Origin: Verrucomicrobiaceae bacterium
GTDB taxonomy: Bacteria; Verrucomicrobiota; Verrucomicrobiia; Verrucomicrobiales; Akkermansiaceae
Assembly (NCBI GenBank): GCA_027485615.1
Contig: JAIXQS010000073.1
Coordinates: 1-64,000, forward strand
Direction of reading: 5' to 3'
Length of the DNA stretch: 64,000 nucleotides
Shown: piece after piece, positions 31,354-47,918 of the stretch
Position numbering within the stretch: the stretch's first letter is position 1
Layout of the letters: the number at the start of each line of letters is the position of its first letter
Notes under the pieces: generated by a model
What the model was told of the DNA's origin: nothing
Seen by the model: only the letters and a program-made list of their open reading frames with translations
The model's database searches: none
Program-made: the position numbers and the translations under genes

Positions 31354-32424
31354 ATGGATAACACTACCGAAGCACCCGAGGAAATCACCGCAGAAGCCAT
31401 CAAGCCCACCACATCGGGAAGTTCCGCCCACCAACTCCCGCCTGACGACGTTGCGGCCATTGATGAGCTGGGAAAAACCTACCAGGCCTTCCGCGCGGAA
31501 CTCGCGAAAACCATTGTCGGCCAGGATGAGGTGATCGAGAAACTCGCGATCTGCCTCTTCGCCCGCGGCCACGCCCTGCTGATGGGAGTTCCCGGCCTCG
31601 CGAAAACACTGCTCGTTTCCTCCGTCGCCCAGACCTTCGACCTCTCCTTCAACCGCATCCAGTTCACCCCCGACCTGATGCCCGCCGACATCACCGGCAC
31701 CGACATCATCCAGGAGTCCGCCGGCGGCAAGCGCGAGTTCGAGTTCGTCCAAGGCCCCGTGTTCGCCAACCTGCTGCTCGCCGACGAGATCAACCGCGCC
31801 CCCGCGAAAACCCAATCCGCCATGCTTGAGGCGATGCAGGAAAACAAGGTCACCGTCCTCGGCAAGACCTACGTGCTCCAGCCGCCGTTCTTCGTGCTCG
31901 CCACCCAAAACCCCATCGAGCAGGAAGGCACCTACCCGCTCCCCGAGGCGCAACTCGACCGCTTCATGTTCCTCATCGAGGTGGACTATCCATCCGCCGA
32001 GGAGGAAAAACGCATCGCCCGCGAAACCACCGGCGCCGCGAAGCAGGCGCTTTCCAAACTCATCGATGGCGAAAAAATCATCGCCTTCCAACAGCTCGTC
32101 CGCCGCGTGCCGGTTCCGGATCACCTCTACGACTACGCGGTCAAGATCGTCCGCAGAACCCGCCCCGGCCAACCCGAATCCCCGCAGTGGATCAGGGACA
32201 CTGTCGGCTGGGGAGCCGGCCCGCGCGCCGTGCAATATCTCATCCTTGGGGCGAAAGCCCGCGCCGCCCTCCGCGGCAATTACATGGCCTCCCTCGAAGA
32301 CCTGGAAGCCGTCGCCCCCGCCGTCCTCAACCACCGCGTCATCACCAACTTCGCCGCCGAATCGCAGGGCATGACCTCGAAGAAGATCATCCAGAAGCTC
32401 ATCGGAGAAATGGCGGATGCATGA
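31354..32424 (+). CDS. MoxR family AAA+ ATPase
   Basis: About 356 residues. Walker A GVPGLAKTLLV, Walker B LLLADEINRAPAKTQSAMLEAM, and sensor TQNPIEQEGTYPLPEAQLDRFMF are those of MoxR AAA+ proteins. These ATPases act as chaperones, usually with DUF58 and von Willebrand (BatA-type) partners, for assembling or protecting membrane complexes. Those partners follow at 32927 and 35707. Its stop is directly followed by the first heptamer of the array at 32425. Confidence 0.94.
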   Translation: MDNTTEAPEEITAEAIKPTTSGSSAHQLPPDDVAAIDELGKTYQAFRAELAKTIVGQDEVIEKLAICLFARGHALLMGVPGLAKTLLVSSVAQTFDLSFNRIQFTPDLMPADITGTDIIQESAGGKREFEFVQGPVFANLLLADEINRAPAKTQSAMLEAMQENKVTVLGKTYVLQPPFFVLATQNPIEQEGTYPLPEAQLDRFMFLIEVDYPSAEEEKRIARETTGAAKQALSKLIDGEKIIAFQQLVRRVPVPDHLYDYAVKIVRRTRPGQPESPQWIRDTVGWGAGPRAVQYLILGAKARAALRGNYMASLEDLEAVAPAVLNHRVITNFAAESQGMTSKKIIQKLIGEMADA

Positions 32425-32480
32425 AGAATCCAGAATCCAGAATCCAGAATCCAGAAACTAGAAACTAGAAAGTAGAGAAG
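32425..32480. repeat. eight-unit 7-nt repeat array, left
   Basis: It holds exactly eight 7-nt units: AGAATCC four times, AGAAACT twice, AGAAAGT, AGAGAAG. It fills the whole space between the moxR stop and the ATG at 32481. Every unit starts AGA. The last unit also serves as the ribosome-binding region of the next gene. Confidence 0.9.
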
Positions 32481-32849
32481 ATGCAGACTCATAATTTCGA
32501 GAACCTGGAGGTGTGGAAGAGGGGTTGCAGGTTGGCGGTAGATGTCTGTGTCGCTTCTTCAAAAACACGTGAGTTTGCCCTGAAAGATCAGATTACCCGC
32601 TCCGCGATTTCGATACCCTCAAACATCGCCGAAGGAGCCGAGCGATCATCTGATGCCGATTTCTCACGCTTCCTCAGTTACAGCAAAGGTTCATGCGGCG
32701 AGCTCCGCACACAACTCATGATCCACCAAGCTGTCAGCCGCGAACTCGCAACCGAACCCTTCGCCGGAACCGCCGATATGATCGAAGAGACCCGCGAAAT
32801 CTCCAAAATGCTAGGAGCCTTAATCGGAAAACTAACCCAAAAACCATAA
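32481..32849 (+). CDS. four-helix-bundle protein (23S rRNA intervening-sequence protein family)
   Basis: 122 residues, the usual length. The conserved start NFENLEVWKRGCRLAVDV, the central SIPSNIAEGAERSSDADFSRFLSYSKGSCGELRTQL and the C-terminal helix match the family (TIGR02436, also called S23). Its members are encoded inside intervening sequences of 23S rRNA in some bacteria and include the Avd protein of diversity-generating retroelements. The biochemical role is not known. The gene sits between two inverted 8x7-nt arrays and breaks the moxR-DUF58 operon. No reverse transcriptase or variable repeat is nearby. Confidence 0.93.
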   Translation: MQTHNFENLEVWKRGCRLAVDVCVASSKTREFALKDQITRSAISIPSNIAEGAERSSDADFSRFLSYSKGSCGELRTQLMIHQAVSRELATEPFAGTADMIEETREISKMLGALIGKLTQKP

Positions 32850-32865
32850 CACTCTGCCCAAAAAT

Positions 32866-32921
32866 CTTATCTGGCCTCTGGCCTCTAAATTCTGGTCTCT
32901 GGTTTCTGGCCTCTAGATTCT
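32866..32921. repeat. eight-unit 7-nt repeat array, right, inverted
   Basis: It holds eight 7-nt units, CTTATCT, GGCCTCT, GGCCTCT, AAATTCT, GGTCTCT, GGTTTCT, GGCCTCT, AGATTCT, all ending TCT. Read on the minus strand they begin AGA, so this is the same repeat style as 32425-32480 in the opposite orientation. It is the same length, 56 nt, and ends 5 nt before the DUF58 start. Confidence 0.88.
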
Positions 32922-32926
32922 AAAGC

Positions 32927-33820
32927 ATGCACACCTTCATCGACAGCGATTTATTGTCCCGCCTCGGCTCGCTCCCCATCGAGTCCCGTGTTCCGATGAT
33001 GGGCAACGTCGCGGGCAAGCACCGCTCGCCCCACCGCGGTTCCTCGGTCGAGTTCGCGGAGTATCGGAAATACGTCCCCGGCGATGACACGCGCCGCCTC
33101 GACTGGAAGGCTTTCGCCCGCTCCGACCGATTTTACATCAAGGAATTCGAGGCCGATACCAACCTCCGCGCCTACTTCGTGATCGACGCCTCCGGCTCCA
33201 TGAATTTCCACAGCCCCGGGCAGGAAACGAAGATCGAATACGCCCGCCGCATCGCCGCTTCGCTCGCGTATCTATTCGTGAACCAAGGCGACGCCGCCGG
33301 CCTCTCGATCTGCACCGACAAGCTCCACCTTGAAGTCCCGCCCTCCCGCCGCGCCGCGCACTTGGAGCGCTTTTTCTCCACGATCGAGAAAGTCGAGCCA
33401 TCCGGAGAAACCGGCCTGATTCCCGCCCTTCACACCATCGCGGAAAAGATCGGCCAGCGCGCCTTCGTCGTCATCCTGTCCGATTTTTTCACCGATACCG
33501 AACAGCTCTCCGAAGCCCTCCAGCACCTCCGCTACCGCAAGCACGACATCTCCCTCTTCCACCTCATGGATCCGCAGGAGATCGGCTTCACCTTCGACCG
33601 CCCCCACCGTTTCGTCGATCTGGAGGACGGCACCGCCATCGTCGCCGAGCCGAACCTCATCGCGGAGGAATACCACTCCGCCCTCAGGGAGTTCCTCAAA
33701 AACGTGCGTGACAAAGCCCACGACGCCAACGCGGACTACCAGCTCGTCACCACCGACACCCCGCTGGAGCCACTGCTCCGCGAGTTCCTCACGGCGCGGC
33801 TCCCCAAAGCGAAGCACTGA
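32927..33820 (+). CDS. DUF58 domain protein
   Basis: About 297 residues. The N-terminal RGSSVEFAEYRKYVPGDDTRRLDWKAFARSDRFYIKEFEA block is the DUF58 hallmark, and a von Willebrand-type fold follows with YFVIDASGSM (metal site) and VVILSDFFTD. These proteins pair with MoxR ATPases. The ATG at 32927 follows the right repeat array after only 5 nt, so its ribosome-binding site lies within or next to the array. Confidence 0.92.
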   Translation: MHTFIDSDLLSRLGSLPIESRVPMMGNVAGKHRSPHRGSSVEFAEYRKYVPGDDTRRLDWKAFARSDRFYIKEFEADTNLRAYFVIDASGSMNFHSPGQETKIEYARRIAASLAYLFVNQGDAAGLSICTDKLHLEVPPSRRAAHLERFFSTIEKVEPSGETGLIPALHTIAEKIGQRAFVVILSDFFTDTEQLSEALQHLRYRKHDISLFHLMDPQEIGFTFDRPHRFVDLEDGTAIVAEPNLIAEEYHSALREFLKNVRDKAHDANADYQLVTTDTPLEPLLREFLTARLPKAKH

Positions 33821-46494: not shown

Positions 46495-47222
46495 TAGGCT
46501 TGTTGATATGGATTAAAAAGGCTGGTAACTGATTGCAGATTACGGAATGGGGAGCCTCAGATCGAGAAATGCGGGCTTTATTCGCCTGCGGCGCATGTCA
46601 ACGGAGCTGTAATACCTTGTCAAGCCTAGAAGTGGTTTCAAAAGTCTTACAAAGACCGTAATGCATGCGCTTTTTGGAAAAAACGCCTTAGGCCGAGGTC
46701 ATGCGCTTTACTTGGACAGCACCCGATCCAGGGACTCGTGCTTCTTCGGCGGGGTCAGCCCGAGCTTCACCTTCAACGGCCCGCAGATCGACGGGGATCG
46801 CGCCGGCATCAGCGCACAGGTCACCCCCGCTGTCCGAAGCCACGCATTCTAAGACGGCCATATCGGCAACTTGGACTCCGGCTACTGTCCCCGAATACAT
46901 AACGACGATTCACGGCGCACGTCACGCAGTGGCAAATTCACGGCTGATTCACCGATAAAAATGACCGGGAATGGGTGCGGCCAGTCTCAACTTTCTCAAG
47001 AAGTAGGATTGCACGGGATAGGATCAGTGCGGGTTCTGGCCGATAAGATCCTGTGACTGGGAGCTGATAGGAGTTACGTTTGCCTACAACCAGGCAACGA
47101 GTCCCCGTTAACAACGATGCCCTTATTGTTCCGGAAAATCATGGAACCGGAAAACTTTCGGGTTTCACCGCATGCCACCCGCAGCCATAGCCGTTTACCA
47201 ACGGTAGATTGGCAAGTAGATA
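46495..47222. other. 728-bp gap without a recognised gene
   Basis: No frame gives a recognisable protein. Fairly open frames near 46700-46960 on both strands (for example FFGGVSPSFTFNGPQIDGDR) could be remnants of a lost gene. The part next to the glycosyltransferase contains TTGACA-like boxes on the minus strand that may be its promoter. Confidence 0.4.
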
Positions 47223-47918
47223 TCACTTTTTGGTGAGCACGATGTCCTTGAATTGGACTTTCATCGGCGGGCCGGCATGCATCTGGAGCGCGATGACGCC
47301 GGTCTTGGGAGCCTCGGCGGTGTTGTCGGTGACATCGACGGTGAGGAGGCCGTTGATGTATTGCTTCACGTTCGCGCCTGCCGCGACGATCTTGAATTCG
47401 TTCCAGTCGTCTTTCCTGATGGCGGCCTGGATCTCCTTGCTGTCGCCGGTTTTTCCGGTGACCTCCAGCTTCGGCTTGGCGGGCGTGTCGCCCTGCGAGA
47501 TGAGGACCTGTTCGCCGCGCTGGGCGAGGATGCCGCGGCCCTTTTCCTCATAGAGGATGCCGCTATAGTTGTCGCCGTATTCGAAATCCGCCTGATATCC
47601 GCCCACGATGAACTTCTCCGCGTCGATCACCTTGCTGCGGTATTGGATGCCGCTGTTGGTGTATTTCTTGTCGTCGCCCGGCGTCATCCTGAACTTGAGC
47701 GTGAGGGTGAAATCGGAAGCCTCGCCGCCTTTCCAGATGATGAAGGTGTTATGGGGAACGGGGTTCTCGGGAGTGGATTTCCCGGTGAGGGCGCCGTCCT
47801 GGACGGACCAGAATTTCGCGTCGCCTTCCCAGCCGGTGAGGTCTTTGCCGTTGAAGAGCTGGGTTTCCTCCGCAGATGCGAGGGAGGCGAGAAGAGCGAG
47901 GGTCAGGATCGGTTTCAT
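47223..47918 (-). CDS. secreted DUF1080 (3-keto-disaccharide hydrolase-type) protein
   Basis: 231 residues. Signal MKPILTLALLASLASAEE. The DUF1080 jelly-roll domain starts LFNGKDLTGWEGDAKFWSV, then FTLTLKFRMTPGD, NSGIQYRSKVID, GGYQADFEYG, WNEFKIVAAGANVKQYINGLL and VQFKDIVLTK. Related domains cleave 3-keto-glucosides. Members are common in Verrucomicrobia and Planctomycetes. It stands alone, 40 bp after tyrS. Confidence 0.88.
   Translation of the reverse strand: MKPILTLALLASLASAEETQLFNGKDLTGWEGDAKFWSVQDGALTGKSTPENPVPHNTFIIWKGGEASDFTLTLKFRMTPGDDKKYTNSGIQYRSKVIDAEKFIVGGYQADFEYGDNYSGILYEEKGRGILAQRGEQVLISQGDTPAKPKLEVTGKTGDSKEIQAAIRKDDWNEFKIVAAGANVKQYINGLLTVDVTDNTAEAPKTGVIALQMHAGPPMKVQFKDIVLTKK

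Follow-up and report, generated by a model that had tools for sequence, protein, structure and literature searches.

Between a moxR-type AAA ATPase gene and a DUF58 gene of a Verrucomicrobiaceae bacterium lies a small gene of the 23S_rRNA_IVP (S23, four-helix-bundle) family, here called the IVP gene, which is enclosed by two inverted arrays of 7-nt repeats (heptads). The element was studied in a stretch of 64,000 nucleotides, referred to as the window (GenBank assembly GCA_027485615.1, contig JAIXQS010000073.1, positions 1 to 64,000). The arrangement is real and recurrent, matched inverted arrays being present at most of the IVP genes sampled, and represents an operon-borne form of the class made up of intervening sequences (IVSs) and IVP genes. 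Taken as a whole, the explanation that the element is an operon-borne copy of a widespread IVP-encoding class, the same class as the S23p-type IVSs of 23S rRNA, is considered rather probable. An earlier note on this DNA had read it as a free-standing element with the anatomy of a 23S IVS, perhaps able to cut or uncouple the moxR-DUF58 transcript; the anatomical part of that reading is supported, the part that concerns events at the RNA level is not.

Anatomy of the moxR-DUF58 element

The 56-nt upstream array completely fills the gap between the moxR stop codon, which ends at 32424, and the ATG of the IVP gene (Table 1). Its eight heptads are, in order, AGAATCC (four times), AGAAACT (twice), AGAAAGT, and AGAGAAG. 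The downstream array also has eight heptads, reading AGAATCT, AGAGGCC, AGAAACC, AGAGACC, AGAATTT, AGAGGCC, AGAGGCC, and AGATAAG in reverse complement, and stops 5 nt ahead of the DUF58 ATG. Coordinates and array counts are as the earlier note had given them. With Tandem Repeats Finder (TRF), no other period-7 arrays were detected in the window.

When the two arms are paired in register, 40 of the 56 positions form Watson-Crick pairs and 2 form G·U pairs, the others being 8 A·C and 6 further mismatches. The pairing proposed previously is thus present at a slightly lower count than the estimate of about 43 including wobble. Shuffling of the bases gave a mean of 23 pairs and a maximum of 35 in 5000 trials. 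Shuffling of the order of the heptads gave a mean of 40.0, and the observed value was reached in 19 % of cases; since such shuffles pair equally well, the match of the arms is one of shared repeat type and not of unit-by-unit register.

The assignment of the gene to the four-helix-bundle family, suggested before from the letters, was confirmed by profile matches to PF05635 (95.8 bits against a cut-off of 33.8) and TIGR02436 (95.7 against 24). Four IVP genes are present in the genome that contains the window (3.45 Mb, 179 contigs), each between neighbouring genes and each flanked by short repeats, the sequences of which differ among the four. IVP genes were found in 94 of 99 related genomes, and the dN/dS values of same-site pairs (0.02-0.24, mostly below 0.1) indicate that IVP is under purifying selection.

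Table 1 The IVP element, its parts, and its host genes in window coordinates
Feature	Position	Strand	Basis
moxR-type AAA ATPase gene, upstream host gene	31354..32424	+	ORF (open reading frame) list; PF07726 E 7e-63
Whole intervening element (array, IVP gene, inverted array)	32425..32921	+	Sequence; same junction without element in many congeners
Upstream array, eight heptamers, AGAATCC/AGAAACT type	32425..32480	+	Sequence, TRF; final unit AGAGAAG beside ATG
IVP (S23, four-helix-bundle) gene, 122 aa	32481..32849	+	PF05635 E 2.2e-27; TIGR02436 E 1.8e-27; NF008912 E 3e-41
Downstream array, eight heptamers, inverted sense	32866..32921	+	Sequence, TRF; innermost unit AGATAAG on reverse strand
DUF58 gene, downstream host gene	32927..33820	+	PF01882 E 6e-47

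Matched inverted arms at IVP genes in other genomes

Two samples were examined, 115 IVP genes from related genomes and 80 named loci from Verrucomicrobia, Bacteroidetes, Proteobacteria, Acidobacteria, Firmicutes, and other phyla, both drawn from the best-scoring family matches and not at random. The arm score was that of the local alignment between the upstream flank and the reverse complement of the downstream flank, and the 99th percentile of shuffled sequences served as threshold. A search of relatives for the family flanked by 7-nt arrays had been proposed in the earlier note. Matched inverted arms exceeding this threshold surround 97 of the 115 IVP genes in the relatives. The median score over these 115 genes was 41, compared with 15 for shuffles and 16 (maximum 22) for neighbouring sequence. 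The threshold was also exceeded at 56 of the 80 named loci across phyla. A period of 7 was the best in 82/115 and 68/80 loci, respectively, whereas no such peak was seen in the neighbour controls; periods of 8, 10, and 11 occur in some IVP clades. The median arm is about 34 nt long, which corresponds to some five heptads, and the upstream arm ends a median of 19 nt before the start codon. An AGAAGA-type motif is located at the inner end of the arms on both sides and recurs in hairpins that lack the IVP gene.

A locus on a plasmid of Pseudanabaena galeata (L314), between cas6 and cas4, is an exception to the inversion: about 10-15 heptads on each side of the IVP gene (AAAAGCT upstream, AAAAGCC downstream) are in direct orientation.

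Repeat type, IVP clade, and site

The repeat unit varies with the site and with the IVP clade but is shared by both arms of a given locus. In a tree of IVP sequences, loci group by repeat type, for example AGACnnA, AGTnTTC, CCAGAnn (the type of the window locus), GTTGATn, and GGGGnnA. Each clade occupies one conserved junction, such as metK-ahcY, argD-argF, nuoI-nuoJ, livG-livF, ilvB-ilvN, or moxR-DUF58 (gene names were assigned by reading the flanking peptides). Repeat type, clade, and site hence cannot be separated from one another in this sample. For arms at the same site, the match within a genome was better than that between genomes in 68 of 85 cases (p = 1e-11), which means that the arms change together. 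Distances between IVP sequences agree in part with those between the host genes (Mantel r 0.74, 0.44, and 0.21).

The link of clade and repeat type, together with the conservation of IVP, would also be expected if the protein regulated its own synthesis. An IVP pentamer would then bind about five upstream heptads beside the ribosome-binding site, in a TRAP-like manner, and set the expression of its own gene and of the gene downstream. The relatives of solved structure, 2GSC and 2RLD, each contain five chains, a number that resembles the heptads of a median arm, and both the short distance from the upstream arm to the start codon and the motif at the inner end of that arm would suit such binding. 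Autoregulation explains neither the downstream arm, which matches equally well, nor the arrays lacking an IVP gene that are dispersed in genes and elsewhere (see below), and the correspondence of clade and repeat type on which it draws is confounded with site. It is quite unlikely as the explanation of the element.

Occupied and empty moxR-DUF58 junctions

The earlier note had considered the element possibly mobile and had proposed a search for empty sites, which were found: in ten congeners that were read, moxR and DUF58 are separated by -1 to 66 nt. Other congeners carry an IVP gene with CCAGAnn-type repeats at the same junction, and in one the arms enclose a truncated IVP gene. Inspection by eye of this junction and of the methyltransferase site described below revealed no clear target-site duplication. 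The IVP gene is the sole gene recognised inside the element, no search aimed at transposases having been made.

Several further congeners (L117, L118, L120, L122, L124, L129, L130, and L138) have other small ORFs between moxR and DUF58, and the junction therefore looks like an insertion hotspot.

Arrays and hairpins without the IVP gene

Arrays lacking an IVP gene were surveyed in 800 kb of a complete congener (G049) and, by means of repeat patterns, in 99 genomes. Only two strict period-7 arrays are present in the 800 kb of G049, along with short hairpins that have inverted heptad arms and no IVP gene (e.g. 47212-47376, 64985-65173, 74338-74444, and 373465-373555). Three other genomes (G024, G029, and G034; loci L341-L350) contain frequent hairpins of about 77-136 nt without IVP, mostly with four GTTGAnn units per arm and with a GAAGAG-like inner motif in common. 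In the genome of the window, CCAGAnn arrays occur at several further places, some of them in frame inside genes.

In this genome, an in-frame CCAGAAA array lies in the linker that joins the halves of uvrA (L185, G000:C7:21668). In other genomes (L316-L340), the uvrA linkers have other repeat types, as judged from the peptide.

Dispersed arrays tend to be of the same type as the arms of an IVP gene in the same genome. GTTGAnn arrays were found in 7 of 8 genomes in which a GTTGAnn-type IVP locus was read and in 14 of 91 others (p = 5e-5). For AGACnnA arrays, the counts were 10 of 19 genomes with an AGACnnA-type locus and 8 of 80 others (p = 1e-4). Both tests, made on the 99 genomes, ignore kinship. 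No association was seen when the types were swapped (p = 0.48 and 1). The comparison is conservative, as the other genomes include some with IVP arms that were not read. The earlier note had held that 7-nt arrays located away from the gene would speak against a connection between the two. Such arrays literally exist, and the association still stands, because the type of an array tracks that of the cognate IVP.

Arrays could also be a mere by-product of slippage-prone 7-nt repeats, with the inverted arms equalised by template switching and the IVP gene an old passenger nearby. Bacterial genomes have an excess of heptameric simple repeats (PMC4692102), and arrays without IVP, such as those in the uvrA linker with its different heptads in different genomes, fit this idea. 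However, strict arrays are as rare as the G049 survey indicates, yet most IVP genes have matched arms. The neighbour controls lack arms, and the type-specific co-occurrence with IVP would not be expected of a passenger. Enrichment of arms at IVP genes already disfavours the by-product explanation, which is very unlikely.

Transcription and the question of an RNA stem

Orientation was scored by means of long ORFs in AT-rich genomes; a codon model was discarded because too many of its calls were undecided or, on its own calibration, incorrect. Both neighbours are codirectional with the IVP gene at 24 of 27 AT-rich named loci with arms, and at none are both opposite. Over all named loci with arms, the corresponding numbers are 38 and 1. 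Annotated IVP genes on cyanobacterial plasmids have cas6 and cas4, or cas10 and a cmr3-family gene, as neighbours on the same strand, and IVP genes have been noted in cas loci (PMC3936711). Presumably, the host transcript drives the expression of IVP.

A strong bias for the sense orientation is also what a strict mRNA intervening sequence would show. The arms would form a stem with the IVP gene as its loop, and RNase III would free the IVP piece, leaving separate moxR and DUF58 messages that are not religated. The RNA is indeed able to adopt the stem that had been proposed: positions 32400-32940 fold with the arms paired at a minimum free energy of -161, compared with -143 ± 7 for shuffled sequences (z = -2.6). 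The median arm would suffice for RNase III, and a 23S IVS of like anatomy in Coxiella is cut by this enzyme (PMC4990558). However, a selected sense-RNA stem should have more G·U than A·C among its mismatches, and in 5007 columns of aligned arms G·U on the sense strand was counted 127 times against 154 for A·C. Selection for an RNA stem is not supported by these counts. The direct arms of L314 are not in keeping with a stem either.

A further point comes from three elements that lie inside genes, two of them at an identical position in a DNA methyltransferase gene (L020 in G052 and L023 in G054) and one in a pglX-like methyltransferase gene (L005 in G029). Uninterrupted methyltransferase homologues show the empty site. 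The host frame is open across both arms and the IVP gene, which is in another frame, in all three, compared with 1 of the 112 other loci. A message that is always cut inside the host gene would need no open frame, so the open frames speak against obligatory cutting. Judged from the sequence, obligatory cleavage by RNase III is disfavoured, and the cutting or uncoupling of the moxR-DUF58 transcript envisaged in the earlier note finds no support in the mismatches or in the three host frames. A cut mRNA is possible but unlikely, and it is not favoured by the sequence.

The three intragenic loci appear to code twice over about 120 codons, in the host frame and in the IVP frame.

Relation to known elements

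A close resemblance exists to the S23p-type 23S IVSs of Coxiella and Leptospira, which combine an IVP ORF, complementary ends, and heptamers. In the IVS of Coxiella, inverted repeats at the termini form a 28-bp stem, and the IVS is cut by RNase III. Tandem GACAGAT heptamers precede the S23p start in strain-variable number, and an AG-rich AGAAGA motif lies close to that start; the authors also recall earlier proposals that IVSs were mobile (PMC4990558). The window element likewise has complementary ends able to form a stem around an IVP ORF and tandem heptamers (8 + 8) beside it. In contrast to the 23S IVSs, it is hosted by a protein operon, outside any 23S rRNA gene, and has relatives dispersed in the genome without the gene. 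A scan of 20 named IVP loci with Rfam for a location in 23S revealed no rRNA. While S23p of Coxiella appears decayed, IVP in the present element is under purifying selection and probably translated; RNase III cutting is known for Coxiella, whereas the present element is known from its sequence.

A gene between inverted short repeats, accompanied by numerous hairpins of that type without the gene, is reminiscent of REP/RAYT (repetitive extragenic palindromes and their transposases) or MITE (miniature inverted-repeat transposable element) systems. IVP is not a transposase, however, the 7-nt tandem units change from clade to clade, and the loops are not conserved. Intergenic tandem 7-nt repeats are also known as heptameric short tandemly repeated repetitive (STRR) or simple sequence repeat (SSR) arrays in Calothrix, Nostoc (GGGGATT), Xanthomonas (GGGAATC), and, as TAACTGA arrays, in Beggiatoa and cyanobacteria (PMC4692102; PMC4679880). 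These were described without an IVP gene or inverted pairing around it, and a term search of the two papers found no mention of four-helix proteins. The general rule that IVP genes lie between inverted heptad arrays was not found in the literature searched, subscription papers and preprints being outside that search.

Avd, the accessory protein of diversity-generating retroelements, is a related four-helix-bundle pentamer. Unlike the case of Avd, no reverse transcriptase (RVT_1, PF00078) was found in the genome of the window or in the complete congener G049.

A dependence of IVP elements on reverse transcriptase had been considered, RVT_1 being present in 62 of the 99 relatives; it was rejected as a requirement on account of these two genomes.

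A proposed mechanism

The type-specific co-occurrence of arrays and IVP could be accounted for if the IVP pentamer recognised its own repeat type, as nucleic acid, at both ends of the element, and helped arrays of the same type to persist and spread in trans. We infer that the arms are kept alike at the DNA level, by repeat slippage and copying between the inverted arms or by the insertion process itself, and that selection for an RNA stem would not be what maintains the match. Hairpins without IVP would be non-autonomous relatives of the IVP element. The moxR-DUF58 element would now be inherited mostly vertically, transcribed with moxR and DUF58, and tolerated there.

Extended to the whole family, IVP might be the recognition part of a family of small elements not recognised before, the inverted heptad ends of which are mutable yet stay matched to each other and to IVP. 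The 23S IVSs would be its rRNA members, the operon form would be common, and the dispersed hairpins would be non-autonomous members that spread in trans. This extension is tentative, and we regard it as somewhat less than an even prospect.

Several observations weigh against the proposed mechanism. No catalytic activity is known for IVP. No near-identical second IVP copy was seen in any genome, so that recent transposition of IVP was not seen; each IVP clade keeps to a single site, and only the arrays without IVP are dispersed. Hence, of the mobility considered possible in the earlier note, insertion with empty sites is supported and recent movement of the IVP-bearing form is not. The loops of the gene-less hairpins are unlike one another beyond the inner motif, which plain copying in the manner of MITEs does not predict. 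One genome (G037) has 57 matches to the AGACnnA pattern and no IVP match in an assembly that is 76 % complete. Plasmids seldom carry IVP (21 of 72,556 records), and no IVP was present in the phage collection searched.

A phage or plasmid vehicle for the elements was dropped as a candidate on these last two results.

IVSs and the S23/IVP family have been known for decades, and the arrangement described here bears on their origin and function. If most bacterial IVP genes are indeed enclosed by matched inverted heptad arrays and located chiefly in protein operons, the rRNA cases would be a minority within one element class. IVP would then be a candidate protein partner for the heptamer repeats that are over-represented in bacteria, and its function would become testable.
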